A DNA stretch of 64,000 nt from Ephemerocybe angulata (Eukaryota; Basidiomycota; Agaricomycetes; Agaricales; Psathyrellaceae): contig JAACJK010000227.1 in assembly GCA_013368325.1 (NCBI GenBank), positions 186,001 to 250,000 of the forward strand, given 5' to 3'. Position 1 is the stretch's first letter. The number at the start of each line of letters is the position of its first letter. The notes beneath the pieces were generated by a model. That model searched no databases. It was not told the origin of the DNA and was given only the letters and a program-made list of their open reading frames with translations. Below are positions 3,700 through 57,300 of this stretch, piece after piece. Both the position numbers and the translations under genes were made by a program.

Positions 3700-4885
3700 A
3701 ATATGTCCTTTCCTCTGGGATGGCATCTAGAAACGACTCTGGCCTTGCTGATCTGGTGCTTTGCCCATAAATCCTTTCTCTACCTTTCCTAGGATATATG
3801 TCCATTTGAATGGATTTCCGTCTGGCCTTTGCATCACAAAGACAGGCCAATGCGCAGACAAACTGGGCTTTGTGTGTCGAGATAAAATGAAAACACTTTG
3901 ACCAGGTAAACCATCATGGGGGCGGGCATAGGAGGCGGGAAAGCAACGAGCTGATGCGGTTGTGTGACGCGTGACGGTACTTTTCTGGGGCCTTTTACCA
4001 AATCGAGTTCTACCCATCTAACGACAGCTCGGGTCACCCGATGGTCGTTACACATTGGTTAGAAGCGCGTACTGTGCAGCCGGAGGAAATCCATCTCGGC
4101 AAAGGTACGCGCATCGTCCTAAAAGAACAAGTCTTTTGTTAGTCGCACTGCCTCGAGAACCTGAAGTCCTCGAGGTCAGTAATCGAAGCCCGTTGGCGGA
4201 ATGCCGGTCTCGAAGAACAAGACTACGTACCTTGTGGGAGGAGCTTCCTCCACCAGATTGGGCAGTTCCGATGTGGAACGGGCGTTAACCCGTGATTAAA
4301 TCTGCATCGGCCCACCAGTACTTCGCTCGGCAGGGCTCGAGAAGCCCTTTGTGAAGTGGTCACCAGGGCGCGCGGTGTACGTGCGTCCCACAGCAGGCCT
4401 TTGGGCATCCACACGAAATCTGTACCATATAATCTGTGATCTAGAAAATGTAACATTAGCATACGGTACCCCGAATTTACGACTCACCTTCGTCTGGACT
4501 CTCCTCCTATCGACTTTGTCTATCCCTGCTCTCGCGAACACCGTCGCGATCGAGCTGCCTGCCGACCTCTCCCACCGGCGCCTAACCATCTCCCGTCTTC
4601 GTCAACGAACTCGATCCTTCGCGATCTAAGCCGATCCGTCCCCTCTGGTCTTCATCTCCGTGCCCTTACCACCCTCCTAGACCCTCGTCAGTCACCGATC
4701 TCCTCAATCGAGGACTCACCTGCGTTCTACGGTCTTCGCGTACCTCATCGTCGAGGTCCAAGCCATCCTTTCCCGTTTTGGGGCCTTAGTCATCCCGCCA
4801 TCAGCCGCGGCCCACAGCCACTCAGCGCTTGTGACGGCGCTTAAGTCTGGGTGTCCTCGGAAGCCGTTTCCTGGGCTCAGTTTGT
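3700..4885. other. no gene recognised
   Basis: Short overlapping open frames on both strands, none with a recognisable domain or consistent splice signals. Probably transposon-derived or intergenic. Confidence 0.4.
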
Positions 4886-21841: not shown

Positions 21842-24800
21842 CTAAACAGGACTCCTCCCTCCAAGCTCCGCATACAAAACATTCGCCCTCCCACCCCCAC
21901 CCACAGCCTTGCCCGAATGCTCCTTCTTATAATGCTCCGAAAGCATAAACGCGACATCTAAACCGCAAAATCAGCATCCCCCTCCAACAAAGAACTCCGA
22001 CCCCAAAGACTCGGGCCAAAGCGAAAGAAAGAAAGAACGACGACGTACCAAGACTCTGCTCAAAGTTCAACCTCGGATCACAAAAGCTCGCATACCTCAA
22101 ACTCAGCTCCTCCTCACTCAACCCCATACTCCCCCCAACGCACTCCGTAACGCTATACCCCTCATCATTCAACTCGCCCGTAAACTCGAGCGACACCCCG
22201 CCCATGCGCGAGCCCACGGACGTGTGGATCCGCAGGCACGCCGTGATCTCCTCGATGATAGCTGCAAAGTCGCGCGTCTTGAGGCCCGAGGACGCGGTGT
22301 GCGTGCTGCGAGGAGGCGACCGGGAAGTCAGCACTTATATCGAGGACGTATGAAGGAAGGGGAGGGAGAGAAGACGCACTTTCCATGCATAGGATCACAA
22401 ACCCACACAACCGGATGCCCACTCTTCTGCACAGCACGAATATGCCCCGCCAAATGACTATCAATCTTCTTCGCCCCATACCGCGTAATAAGCGTAACAC
22501 GCCCAGCTTCCTTATCTGGGTTCACGACTGCAAAAACACGCACACAGTCAGCTCAAGTTCCAACATCGTGTCCGGCTCGCCTCTAAGCAAGGTCGAACGA
22601 AGGCCATCGCCGAGGAAAGGTCGACAGAGGCACAAACGAACGAACGAACGAAAGAAAGCGCGAAAAAGAAAGCGCGAACGAACGAACGAACGAACGAACG
22701 AAAGCGCGAACGAACGAACGGACGAATGCACGAAAACACGAAAGCACGAACGAACGAACGAACGAAAGCACGACCGAACGAAAGCGCGGACGAAAGCACG
22801 AACGAACGAACGAAACCACGAAAACACGAACGAAACCACGAACGCCACGAAACACGAAACCACGAACGAAGCCACGAACGAACGAAAGCACGAACGAAAC
22901 CCCGAAACCACGACCAAAACCACGACCAAAACCCCGAAACCCCCAACCAAAAAAACAAAACCACACTCACCATCCAACAACCCCACCAACTCCCCCTCCC
23001 CCATACTAGGCCCCACCTTCACCCCGATCGGATTCCTAATCCCCCTAAAATACTCCACATGCCCATGGTCCAACTGCCGCGTCCGGTCCCCAATCCATAT
23101 GAAGTGCGCCCCCGTGTTGTAGTGGTGCTTCTTCGACGCAGAGCGCCGCGCAGGCTGCGCAACCCGCGGGGCGCCGGGGGTGGTGGGGTTGCCGCTGGTC
23201 TTGATGGGGGTGGAGTAGCCGCTGGTCTTGGTGGGGGTGGTGGGGTTGCCGCTGGGAGTGGTGGGGTTGCTGATAGTGATGGGCGAAGAGGGCGCGGGCG
23301 TGCAGACGCCGGAGGCCGCTTCGCGCTGCCGAACGGAAGAGGGCACGGCGAACTCGCGCGTGAGCGCTTCTTCGTAGGCGAGCATCAGGCCTTCGTGGCT
23401 GCGTAGAGAGGTAGGAGCGTCAGCGAACGGAAACGAATAAGCCTAGGGGGAACGAAACGATGGAAAGAATGGTAAGACGATCGAGGAAGGACCGCGGCGG
23501 CAGCAACGATGGTGACGCGCACGAACAAGCGCATCGCAAGACGGGATGGTCATTGGTTCACCCAAAGAGGACGCAGTGTCGTGAATGGAAGCGAAGTGCG
23601 TGCACCACACGACCCAAGACGAAATGAACCTGCGGCGATTCAACGCACGGCACGAACCACAGAACCCACTCGGATTCTCAAGATCCTCCAGATCCTCGCG
23701 AAACCACCTCCATCCACGCCGATCCGAGGACGTCCCACGCAACACCGTACCACAGCACAAACGTGCGTGCATGCGTGCGGGTAGATAGAATGGACCGCGT
23801 TCCGAGAACCTCGGTACTCGCAGCGTCTATCGCCCGCACATGCCCAAGCCCGTACGAACGAACGAACTAGGAAGGACGAAAGCTGAACGACCGCCCGCCC
23901 GCCCGCTCAACCCATCCAACGAGCGAACCACCTCCATCCATCCATCCACCCAACGACCAACACGAACACTCCAACTCCCCAAACCACCCCCAACCACCCC
24001 CCGTCCACCCCACACCCAACCATCCACCCCATCCACCCGAATATCCAAAAGAAAAACCCACCTAGTATAAAAGTCCACCTCCCCCAAACTTCCCCTCCCC
24101 CCTCCCTGCTCATACGGCCTCTCGCTCTCCACCCCGATCGTCCGCGCAAAATCGAGCGCGTCGCTCAGGCCGTCTACTATTTTTTCGAATTCGGCTCTGT
24201 GATGGGAAGTCAGTATATGGTAAAGAGGAGGATGAATGAATGAATGGATGAATGAATGTGTGGGGATGGGAGGCGATACTCGGGGTCGGGGTAGACGAGG
24301 TAGGAACGGATACGCGGTGGGGTAATCGAGGTGGGGATGGATACGCAGCGGGGTATGTGGGGTACGCAGTGGGGTATCAGTGGTACGCAGGCCATCAACC
24401 CCACGAAGCGCCGTACACAGCGGGGGTGGCGATACAACCCAGGGTCCACATACCCCACCCTCAACGCCACCCGCACATAAACCCACATCCCCATCGTCCA
24501 CCTCCGGTGTCGCTCGCCCGAGTGACCAAAGCGAACAACCAAAACGAGCGCCCGGCCGTCCACCCGTCCGCCGGGAACGAGGATAGCCCAGCAGAACGAC
24601 AGAACGACAGAAACATCGATAGACCGAACGACGCCAGAACGACCGAAAGACGGAACGAAACAGCCGCTCGACAGAACGACAGAATGAGAATAGCCCAACA
24701 GCCCAACAGAACGACAGAACAAACGCCAGAACATCGAACAAACTCAGCACCGTCCGCCCGTCCGCCCGTTCGTCCAACCATCCAAACAAGAACCCAAACG

Positions 24801-35130: not shown

Positions 35131-36246
35131 ATGTACAGTGAAGATAACACCAGTACCGACGCGAGCCGGTGGCTCGATGCACAAGTGGAAGGTCTTCCAG
35201 AGCCTTCTCCTCAGTGGCCCAGCGAAGATAACAGCAGTACCGACGCGAGCCGGTGGCTCGATGCACAAGTGGGAGGTCTTCCGGAGCCTTCTGCTCAGTG
35301 GCCCTCAATTACCTTCACCGATCCCTCAGGTGGTCAACACCAAGCTCAAGATCCTGAGATGTTGGAGATGTACGAACACGTATTACGAGGCGACTCGAGC
35401 GTCTTTGACGCGGCGGACATCTCGGGCTTCCCCAGCCTATCGGCACAAAACGCCTCGAGCGCCTTCGGCACTGACCTTCCGGCGACCTTCTTCGACCCAA
35501 ACTCTACGCCGTATTTCAATGGAATCGAGCCCCAGCTGGCTTACGGTGGAGCTAGTATCCCGAATGTTCCTGGCGCCTGTGCCTCATACGATCAGCAACA
35601 CGTTCCATTCTCTAGTAATCCTGAAGAGTGGAGAATGGACGAACGCGTACCACAAGGCGACTGGAGCACCTTCAACTTTGACACGGGTTTTGCGACACTT
35701 CCCAACCCCAGTTCTCTCTATGGGAGTGGGACTCAGCTTCAACTTGAAGTCCATCCTGGTCACCAGACCAGTAACTTGGGTACTGTTGCCGATGGGTCCG
35801 CATCCGGTCCAACCTCTCAGGCGCCATTGAAGACGTCCTCTAGGACTGATATGGCTAGTAAACAAGGAGTTAGCCCCGATGGACTAGCTTTAGACCGCAA
35901 GCTGCTCAGAGCCGATCCAAGATGCCGCGTTATCTCTGACACCGACACATCCGTTTTCTGCGTTTACTGCAACAAGTTCGTCGAACTCCGCGACAAGAGA
36001 TGCTCGCTACTGGTAGCTTGGAGGTGGCATTGCCAAAGTGACCTGAATCGACAAAAGTTCGCTGAAGACCCGAACGCCGCATTTGTACCTGAAACGGATA
36101 AGGAGATTTTTTGTTCCCTGTGTAACTCGCGCCTCAGCTTGGGTTACGCGTGGAGGTGGAGCGGCTGGGAGGAACACAAGAAGACCCAGGGACATCGCTT
36201 TCGAGAGAGACAGGCAGCAGCCAGTGCCCATCAATCTGCTACTTAA
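35131..36246 (+). CDS. C2H2-like zinc-binding protein (371 aa), paralogue of the 9.9-kb gene
   Basis: Single exon. I use the ATG at 35131 because it aligns with the internal MYSED start of the paralogue; the frame extends upstream only from a TTG. Residues 3-58 are a perfect-length tandem duplication of 28 residues (84 bp each, 35137-35220 and 35221-35304) with the core STDASRWLDAQV. The middle is acidic and Ser/Pro-rich. Two C-terminal modules follow: FCVYC...W..HC and FCSLC...W..H...GH, each C-x2-C with Trp and His 20-30 residues on. The 9.9-kb paralogue has three modules and one copy of the N-terminal repeat. Function unknown; nuclear or nucleic-acid binding is a guess from the module. Confidence 0.75.
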   Translation: MYSEDNTSTDASRWLDAQVEGLPEPSPQWPSEDNSSTDASRWLDAQVGGLPEPSAQWPSITFTDPSGGQHQAQDPEMLEMYEHVLRGDSSVFDAADISGFPSLSAQNASSAFGTDLPATFFDPNSTPYFNGIEPQLAYGGASIPNVPGACASYDQQHVPFSSNPEEWRMDERVPQGDWSTFNFDTGFATLPNPSSLYGSGTQLQLEVHPGHQTSNLGTVADGSASGPTSQAPLKTSSRTDMASKQGVSPDGLALDRKLLRADPRCRVISDTDTSVFCVYCNKFVELRDKRCSLLVAWRWHCQSDLNRQKFAEDPNAAFVPETDKEIFCSLCNSRLSLGYAWRWSGWEEHKKTQGHRFRERQAAASAHQSAT

Positions 36247-54348: not shown

Positions 54349-56384
54349 TCATCGAGTTCTTTGACTGTGTGGAGGTATTCAGATCAGGTTTGAACGAAGG
54401 GTGTTCGGTAAACTTACTTCAAGGCTTCCCAATGCGATGCAAACTTGAGTACAAGAGAAACCCAACGCCGTGAGCTAGGGGTTCCGAAATACTAGGCATA
54501 TTAGGACTTACCCACTGCAGAGTCAAGCACAACGATATGTAAGCGAATTTCTGTGAATATTTGAGGTAGAAGGGGACTCACATCCTATAAATCCGGATGC
54601 CCCAATCCATGAGCATTGGCAATGTATTCGAGGCGAATCGAAACTTACACCCTGTAAACCCAAGGAGGCCGAGATTAAACAAGCCGTTTTCAGCGTTTTA
54701 AGTGTCTGAAGCGAAATAGTACGTACAAGCTATCAATTCATTGAGGCATGAATATGAGCGCATCCTTTGATCTTGAGGTAAAAACGGAGCTTACTTCCTG
54801 TTAGTTCGAAGAGTTCGAAGTGTGAGCACTCCATTATCCGAACTTTTCGAGGTGACACGGGACTTACGCGCTGCCAAGTCAGAGATGCTGGCCAGTAAGC
54901 ACTCGGCTGTGAGTAATTAAGGTAAAACAGAACTGACGTCCTAGGCAATGACATGGTCCCGTGAGTGCTCGTTCAAGTATCAGTATGGGAAGCAAACGCA
55001 ACTCACCAGCTATCGATTCGAACAAGCCGAGGTGTGAGCACATGTACTTCCCTATTTAAAGCAAAACGGGACTGACATCCTACGAATCCAAAGCGGCGGA
55101 GATGTGAGCAGCTCTTTCAGAGTAGCTGCGACGAAGAAGAACTCACAACCTATAAATCCAATCAGCACTCAGATATCTATTCATGGCGGACGACCCTTAC
55201 AATCTATAAAGTCAAGGATATCAGCTATAAGCTCTCCGTTATTAATGTCAGACACAAAATTGGACTTACTCGCTATAAATACATAGTGTAGTGAGCACCC
55301 CACTATCAATATTCGAGACTAAATACGACGTACTTCCTATAGATGCAGAAGTGAGCACTCGTTCATCCATTCATGTGGCGATGGAGTCTATGAACGTACT
55401 ACAAGGTACTGCTTCTGCACATGGCGAAACTGGGACACCTCCACCGGATCGTCTACCTGAGCCACACGCGCCCTCTTGTGCGTTATCCTTCCTGGAAGGA
55501 TAAATCGAGTGTTACAGCGTCGGCTACGTCGTCACTTCGTCATCACCATCTCACAGCGGTAAAATCCATACAGAAAAGACGCACCACACATGCCATCCTT
55601 GATCCACGTATGTCCCAAGCTCGGTCTTCCCACATTTTGGACACATCCTCTTGAGGTCCCTATCGTATTTCTGTTCAATAACCATGCTCATTACCAGCTC
55701 TCCACGCTCATTCCTTAGATTCTCCCAGTGCTCGGCGTTGACTACCAGTCCATCCTCTGATTCATCCACACGGCCTATGCAATAACGCCCTTCTGCGACG
55801 CGTTGCTCTCCCAATCTACCCCTGAAATGGTTGACCAACAATCTTCGCAACTCCTGTTTAAGGATTAACCAAGATCATCGAACGTAAACTAGGAAATCAT
55901 TCCACATTACCTCGTAGGTCGGTACAATGCTCCATGGGAGAGTCAGAGTCTCTCCCAACGCATCGGTGAGGACCAACGCATTCTCATTGCTATGACGCAT
56001 CATCGCCGGAATATTTCTTCGCATTTCCACCGCGATGGCTCGTCGAACTACGCCACATGAGTGTGCAGACCTTCAGAGCGGACATCGTATCATGAAAAAC
56101 GCACTTTCGTTCACGTAGTCATTGTTCTGCATGATCATGTTTCCCTGGACGGTGGTGATGGCTAGCGAGCCGAACGAGTTGTGACTGCTTCCACAGAGGA
56201 TTTGCGGAGCCTGTTGGGAGGGAGGCTCGACGGTATGTGCTGTGTCGGAGAGGGGCTCAGTGGTACGTGCTGCGTCTGGGATAGGCTCGCAGGGAAATTG
56301 TGGAGGTACGATGAGGGAAGCGACAGGTTCTAAAGGTGAATCCGTGGGTTCTATCTGAGGCGTGCTAGGAGGCTCTAAAGGTCC
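54349..56384 (-). CDS. ubiquitin-like-domain protein with zinc ribbon; C-terminus encoded by 13 single-codon exons (5' end unresolved)
   Basis: Exons (minus): 56384-56105, 56047-55911, 55853-55585, 55523-55400; then 3-nt exons at 55334, 55270, 55201, 55147, 55077, 55007, 54938, 54868, 54795, 54727, 54649, 54582, 54512 (lowest base of each); then 54443-54418 and 54364-54349. Phases agree throughout. The first exon is Pro-rich. The next two give a domain like the ubiquitin-like domains of Agaricomycete proteins (ALVLTDALGESLTLPWSIV ... LLVNHFRGRLGEQRV ... ELVMSMVI). A C-x2-C-x15-C-x2-C ribbon (CPKC...CRRC) follows, split by an intron. The single codons spell E,R,I,V,D,L,D,R,E,L,G,D,W, in helix-like context, then FASHWEALK and a stop. 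The 5' end is unresolved: an intron with a good CTAAT branch site ends at 56385 and an upstream exon near 56435-56470 is likely. The role is unknown; the domain name comes from motif resemblance. Confidence 0.75.
54444..55399 (-). repeat. array of 14 mutually similar introns separated by 3-nt exons
   Basis: Fourteen GT-AG intervals of 51-75 nt (mostly 64-70) alternate with exactly 3 nt. Most begin GT(A/G/C)AG(T/C)..CGTTT, have a CCTC(A/G)A word near position 17-22 and a GCTCAC-like branch site 20-35 nt before the AG, and end in (T)AG. The shared internal words suggest that the introns arose from one another. Confidence 0.8.
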
Positions 56385-56434
56385 CTGACGCATTAGTTGG
56401 AAACTCAGCGCTACACATTCGCATAGAACTCACT

Positions 56435-57300
56435 GGCTCGCCTCTTCGACCTATTCCATCGAAAAGAGGCTACGAGTATTGCCAGTATCGTACTTGACGG
56501 CATGAGCGATGAGGAAGAATGTCGAGGGAATTAGACTGGGGAAAGGAGAATGAAAAGGACGCGGGGACTGCTGTGTAAATGGAACATGCGTCTGGCGCGA
56601 GGCAGAACTGTCGAGACCAACCGTCTGATCATGCACCACAATTAAACGATAATGAATTTCACTTCACTCGATCTCCGACCAGTTTAGGACACATCACGTC
56701 CATGCGGAATTAAGACATGGGGCAAGGGTATTGGTGACTGGGTCGTTGGAATTATTGTGTTTTCTTCGTACCAATGGTACGAAGATAGTTGAGGCGAATG
56801 TTCGGATCAAGAGAAGCTACTGCGCACAAGAGAAAGTGAATGATCCACCTCCATGCACACACGTTCTCTACGCAAGGTAAGGGTTGGAATCGAATTGAGT
56901 ACATACACGAGGCAATTCCTGTAGAAGTTAGAACCACCGCTATATGAACCAAGCCCGCAGCCCAGCCGAGCATATTTACTGGATGGAACTTCGCAGCGTG
57001 CCGGGTGGAGTGCGATGCTGCCTTCCCATTTTAGATCAGCTAAGCTGTAAAACACCTGTTTCCAGTCATTCTTCATCTTGATTTTAAGCAGCTTTAGAGA
57101 ATCTTGCCAAGATCCGGCGCGTAACGCCGTAGGCCCTGCGGCGTCCGTCCCAGTCTCGGAAATCCCTACTACAGATAATCGGACAATTGGATCATATTCT
57201 GGTGGTTCATCTTCTCTCAGAGCTCGTAGATAGTCTCGTCGCTTTCTTAGCTCATATGGAGCACTCACACACCGCGTTTGTTAGAGCAACCTCAGCCCTT
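56435..57300 (-). other. probable 5' part of the ubiquitin-like-domain gene, not resolved
   Basis: A short exon-like piece near 56435-56470 reads PLFDGIGRRGEP in phase with the next exon. Further upstream 56999-57268 is open and reads like protein (YELRKRRDYLRALREDEPPEYD) but begins without ATG. I could not join these with consistent splice sites. Confidence 0.3.

Follow-up and report, generated by a model that had tools for sequence, protein, structure and literature searches.

The stretch of DNA analysed here, hereafter the window, comprises 64,000 nucleotides of the ink-cap mushroom Ephemerocybe angulata (C13:186001-250000, contig JAACJK010000227.1). On its minus strand lies a gene of five ordinary exons that is followed by an array of short introns separated by single codons. 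The ordinary exons were placed by protein-to-genome alignment with P0001 and P0002, two homologues from strain DFP72. Exon 1 (56434-56503, 70 nt) carries the start codon at 56503 and precedes exon 2 (56105-56374, 270 nt). A ubiquitin-like domain, located by Pfam on the joined product, starts in exon 3 (55911-56047, 137 nt) and ends in exon 4 (55585-55853, 269 nt), which also contains the first CxxC of a zinc ribbon. Finally, exon 5 (55400-55523, 124 nt) supplies the second CxxC and the sequence FRHVQKQYLV, and ends in phase 0. The joined product matches PF22893 (ULD_2, ubiquitin-like domain) at 58.2 bits for a cut-off of 24.5, exon 4 alone reaching 31.2 bits, while the zinc-ribbon-like CxxC...CxxC stays below the Pfam cut-offs. 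This reading frame is intact up to the array. An AlphaFold model of P0001, computed from a 10-sequence alignment, was poor with a mean pLDDT of 46.8. In exon 2, the SSHNSFGSLAITTVQGNM stretch of the family is fairly conserved and may resemble signalling motifs in fungal NLR partners.

With a total of 870 nt, exons 1 to 5 make up exactly 290 codons, and the array therefore begins in phase 0, in line with the phase that the initial annotation had assigned to exon 5. Parsing of the minus strand, splice-signal chaining and a score test delimit the array at 54444-55399 with 14 introns of 51-75 nt and 13 single codons. The 13 segments of exactly 3 nt that had been described, running from 55336 to 54512 and spaced by 54-78 bp, were recovered by parsing in the same order. 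The predicted one-codon exons are GAA (E, 55334-55336), CGA (R, 55270-55272), ATT (I, 55201-55203), GTT (V, 55147-55149), GAT (D, 55077-55079), CTG (L, 55007-55009), GAC (D, 54938-54940), CGC (R, 54868-54870), GAA (E, 54795-54797), CTT (L, 54727-54729), GGT (G, 54649-54651), GAT (D, 54582-54584) and TGG (W, 54512-54514). All 13 are symmetric and in phase 0, and the first residue is also E in P0002 of the other strain. Every one of the 14 introns runs from GT to AG at a normal length, as had been claimed. The branch-like GCTCAC attributed to each interval needs a looser wording, since YTNAY is present in 14/14 introns, CTNAC in 10/14 and the literal GCTCAC in only 6/14.

The array is followed by a post-array exon of 26 nt (54418-54443) that encodes FASHWEAL and was delimited by chaining and paralogue comparison. 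The gene end first proposed, FASHWEALK and a stop, stands provided that the donor at 54417 is not used, and the predicted product then reads ...FRHVQKQYLV-ERIVDLDRELGDW-FASHWEALK, with 312 residues. If this donor is used, the end becomes FASHWEALNQRTR and a possible last coding piece of the joined model lies at 54351-54364, ending in NQRTR and a stop. The single codons account for 39 of the 936 coding nucleotides of the gene model. A copy of the central portion of the array, 82 bp long (89%), lies within repeat-rich DNA of another contig (L005, C117:2421499-2421580); it comprises part of an intron, the GAT codon and part of the following intron.

A chance run of splice-like motifs was considered and rejected. 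Introns were linked into chains according to the scores of their donor, branch and acceptor sites, any exon length from 1 to 60 nt being equally permitted, and this returned all 13 array exons of the window at 3 nt. Applied to both strands of window positions 1-54000, the same procedure gave a single 3-nt exon among 66 in 13 chains; these control chains were unfiltered, whereas the family chains reported below were retained only with at least three 3-nt exons. Among 300 dinucleotide shuffles of the window array, 290 had no 3-nt exon, 10 had one and none had two. The 14 introns score between 9.3 and 11.4, their lowest value being reached by 1.3% and their median by 0.4% of random pairs (5979 GT..AG pairs from window positions 1-53000). 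A strict pattern search was unspecific when used alone, with 34 and 40 matches in the backwards control against 42 and 17.

The array is not restricted to the window. Relatives of P0001 were found on contigs C13, C52, C214, C208, C139, C104 and C150 by one search that scored the best candidates only, and 15 of its loci were examined (the window, L006, L007 and L039 to L050, of which L042 represents two matches). Of these 15, 10 contain arrays, namely the window, L006, L007, L039, L040, L041, L046, L047, L048 and L050, and in one additional orphan locus, L077. Splice-signal chaining yields 183 exons of exactly 3 nt across these 11 loci. When the doubtful L045 on C208 is counted as well, 187 of 234 internal exons measure 3 nt, in chains that have at least three such exons; L045 itself contributes four of them through a weak chain and is not part of the set of 183 codons. 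In L049 on C104 and in the C214 loci (L042 to L044), no chain reached the minimum of three 3-nt exons, and the annotated C214 proteins have continuous tails, for example P0015.

The longest array was parsed by hand in L041 (C13:338k) and contains 44 array exons, 40 of which are single codons, with one GC donor. L041 spells LEEERERLESEHQAMEHRIEELKHQADARRGVMLRHASQRR and LEEERERLESEHQAMEHRIEELKHQADARR. Besides the single codons and this one GC-AG intron, the array holds a 9-nt exon and a 6-nt exon, and at locus positions 4463-4790 a 30-nt exon (GVMLRHASQR), a CGC codon and their introns are duplicated in tandem. The L047 array (C52:16k) is broken into pieces. Inspection by eye of the L050 array (C150) suggests that a deletion joined two introns into one and took out a codon while the frame was kept. 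The orphan array L077 lies at C13:343.2-344.3k after a long T tract, and no P0001 match is found near it among the matches listed. It reads CTT GGG CGT GCT CGT CTT GAA ATT GGT AGA TTC CTT GAT ACA GTT and continues into RKMQEEDSSR.

Several observations bear on whether the codons are coding. None of the 183 array codons is a stop, while column-preserving shuffles contain 4.9 on average (P of zero, 0.004); the deficit is modest, with P 0.043 for the old arrays alone and P 0.034 for distinct codons per locus, and both this test and the helix statistics that follow assume independence of the codons despite the duplication of the units. Helix formers are favoured beyond column shuffles even without proline (0.402 against 0.497, p 0.001), and the bias persists if identical codons of a locus are counted only once (p 0.001) and for the 13 window codons alone (p 0.03). 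In the type B arrays defined below, which provide 35 codons from three loci, no helix bias was detected (p 0.28 without proline and 0.84 with it). A post-array exon was recognized in eight paralogues (L006, L007, L039, L040, L046, L048, L050 and L077), and in 8/8 of them it measures 31-43 nt with a length of 1 mod 3. Read in the array frame, these exons end in sequences resembling REQAQSESR or EEESR. Unlike them, the post-array exon of the window is 2 mod 3, and the window copy has therefore lost this conserved end. It has to be kept in mind that skipping of the whole array would also be frame-neutral, so that the frame alone is no proof of inclusion.

Annotated proteins from strain DFP72 offer a complementary view. 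When aligned to L046, the protein model P0016 takes ATT and GAA as successive exons of 3 nt at the predicted positions and then runs into intron sequence. P0002 and P0013 hold the first predicted residue (E and T, respectively) and then depart from the array, while P0001 and P0004 contain intron translations, such as PLSIYS in P0004 that resembles an intron 3' end. All five aligned models thus stop in the arrays or translate through them, and current annotation would consequently miss such genes. A comparison of the L041 tail with database proteins gave 179 candidates, none at E <= 10. The reading of the codons as coding, put forward from the window alone, gained support from the recurrence of the layout in nine more family loci and the orphan array, from the absence of stops, from the length of the post-array exon in all eight paralogues and from a variability that is limited to the 3 nt between splice junctions. 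It is predicted that the array codons are spliced into the mRNA as one-codon exons.

This variability was assessed in the young arrays, a set of four arrays with 68 units in which the mean intron identity is 0.69-0.79 per array. The three exon columns have entropies of 1.81, 1.95 and 1.83 bits and the flanking AG and GT have none, while the intron columns mostly lie at 0.3-1.3 bits with a few up to 1.76. Variability begins and ends exactly at the splice junctions. In the 27 closest pairs of units, the codons have diverged about five times more than the intron bodies, with Jukes-Cantor distances of 0.398 and 0.074, respectively. Codons are identical in 5 of the 10 pairs with introns more than 92% identical and in 1% of the 499 pairs below 70%. 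Since codon sharing rises with intron identity, the units seem to have been copied together with their codons. Still, a unit has the same codon as its nearest neighbour in only 11 of 68 cases. When pairs with at least 84% intron identity differ at one codon position, the change is synonymous in 9 of 72 cases. Fast codon change of this kind fits diversifying selection, although gene conversion that homogenises the introns, or a mutation hotspot, could account for part of the contrast between codons and introns.

The window array is old, with a mean intron identity of 0.62 that barely exceeds the 0.59 obtained with shuffled intron bodies. Old arrays have nevertheless kept their donors in 14/14 introns of the window, 18/18 of L046 and 43/44 of L041, the remaining one being GC, and AG is found in all of them. 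The introns of the window and of L046 have a consensus that is related to type A (0.72, p 0.004), whereas the type B introns of the C139, C150 and C52:16k arrays are not detectably related to it (0.66, p 0.14). Two intron sequence families thus form one-codon arrays at the same position of the gene. At least 31 matches to a type A intron piece all fall in the C13 arrays (31/31), and at least 15 matches to a type B piece all fall in the C150, C52 and C139 arrays (15/15), a confinement that speaks against dispersed introners. Adjacent identical codons occur 9 times in 172, with 9.2 expected, and give no sign of target-site duplication.

Structured introns as a guide for splicing were also considered and were not supported. 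RNAalifold was run on introns shorter than 80 nt, namely 67 of type A, 30 of type B (40 names listed, 30 after merging of repeated names), 31 old ones from the window and L046, and 44 from L041. It returned five weak pairs in the type A set and none in the other three, and the mean single-intron structure z-scores in the same four sets range from -0.08 to -0.45.

Several explanations compete for these arrays. The array might be excised as a single intron of 956 nt, in one step or recursively, with the 3-nt pieces absent from the mRNA. Such skipping would keep the frame, as the end of exon 5 and the start of the next exon are both in phase 0, and recursive steps also require repeated acceptor-donor pairs. 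Nevertheless, recursive splicing sites join AG directly to GT with nothing between them, while here 3 nt separate acceptor and donor in 13/13 window cases. Neither version requires a length of exactly 3 nt, the lack of stops in 183 codons, helix-prone codons or a variability confined to the codons between the junctions, and excision in either way is regarded as improbable. Even less credit is given to the idea that a decaying gene end contains a satellite or minisatellite whose motifs resemble splice signals, the 3-nt pieces being meaningless. This alternative had been raised by the initial annotation and is right in that the array is a tandem repeat, plainly so in the young arrays with their mean intron identity of 0.69-0.79. 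The fragmented L047, the orphan L077 and the window copy without the conserved frame of its last exon also agree with it. What a satellite leaves unexplained is that splice signals outlast the similarity of the intron bodies, as the old introns are near shuffled identity and yet keep their splice sites (14/14, 18/18, 43/44), and that two unrelated repeat sequences lead to identical 3-nt spacing at the same gene position.

Two further explanations accept the codons as parts of a protein tail. The tail could descend from an older continuous exon whose codons were separated by the insertion of introner-like introns, an origin that would account for introns that are alike between codons that differ and for the C214 relatives with continuous tails. 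Insertion predicts many exon lengths in all phases, whereas 183 exons measure 3 nt in phase 0. It does not predict that units with similar introns share codons, and it is also opposed by the restriction of intron matches to the arrays (31/31 and 15/15 among the matches listed) and by the missing target-site duplication. We consider this origin unlikely. More room has to be left for the possibility that the codons are real exons whose diversity comes from local mutation or gene conversion of introns and not from selection, although this remains a tentative option. Introns are homogeneous within an array, and if conversion copies introns alone, the contrast in rates requires no function. On the other hand, conversion tracts would overwrite the codons too. 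This explanation is moreover disfavoured by codons that exclude stops and favour helix formers, which suggests that the protein matters.

The explanation that we strongly favour is that of tandemly duplicated units of one intron and one codon, whose introns would probably be removed one by one to yield a diversifying tail. In the proposed mechanism, the intron together with its codon would be the repeat unit that is copied in tandem. The tail could in this way lengthen or shorten by whole amino acids without a frameshift, since the units are in phase 0 and their gain, loss or skipping leaves the frame intact. Each short intron would be recognized across its own length and the introns would be removed in turn, because simultaneous binding of an acceptor and the next donor is hard to envisage across only 3 nt. 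The gene would probably encode a ubiquitin-like member of an expanded family, with a tail that is variable and often helix-prone. This tail would be under diversifying selection, comparable to that on recognition proteins, and the fast change of its codons would reflect such selection. Given the variability of the tail and the copy number, it may be guessed that the tail recognizes self, non-self or partner proteins. The whole picture of one exon per amino acid appears somewhat more likely than not. In it, cassette copying would allow the tail to gain, lose and swap single amino acids, selection would separate the codons while the introns remain similar, and residue-by-residue splicing would create an evolvable recognition tail, possibly with in-frame splice variants within a single cell.

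The closest known systems share some of these features. The micro-exon genes (MEGs) of schistosomes have very small symmetric exons, the use of which shifts a few residues without frameshift, and their proteins change fast (PMC4350168). The mushroom arrays are similar in these tiny symmetric exons. However, in MEGs the small exons make up most of the coding region, whereas the mushroom gene has five ordinary exons (870 nt) and only its tail is micro-exonic. The mushroom arrays moreover differ by their mostly one-codon exons, their long runs and the tandemly copied introns in between. Plants have isolated micro-exons of 1-15 nt, and homothorax of Drosophila contains a 3-bp exon (PMC8831610, PMC4674806 and PMC7392893). 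Micro-exons of 1-3 nt in plants and animals indicate that spliceosomes can include exons that short. These are single or few, while the mushroom ones form long tandem arrays with varying codons. For a 1-nt exon, intron definition with stepwise removal has been argued (PMC4674806), and stepwise removal would likewise apply to the mushroom arrays.

In filamentous fungi, a functional micro-exon whose use is switched by glucose is described for Xlr2 of Trichoderma virens (PMC11121469); it resembles the present case as a micro-exon in such a fungus and differs as one exon outside any array. Introner-like elements and sister stwintrons are similar spliceosomal introns spread over several fungal genes (PMC4457414 and PMC8469720). 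The mushroom introns are similar to each other like introners but were matched only within the arrays of one gene family, at a spacing of one codon. The gain of an intron by tandem genomic duplication has been reported as a single case of local duplication (PMC4974935), while in the mushroom an intron plus codon unit would have been copied dozens of times. Among the titles and abstracts listed from the open-access PMC literature, none describes a run of single-codon exons.

If the codons are spliced in, up to 45 consecutive introns would have to be removed from one transcript (L041), mostly 3 nt apart, and this would put exon definition and the order of splicing to a demanding test. The arrays would also show a protein tail that evolves one amino acid at a time, the introns being the copied unit and the codons the variable part. 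With two intron families and both young and old arrays, they would serve as natural replicates to measure selection on single codons.

Two other repeats were noticed in the window. A degenerate satellite of the AACGAACG type occupies about 300 bp at 22635-22941, and an 84-bp unit is present at 35136-35304 in two tandem copies with 94% matches.
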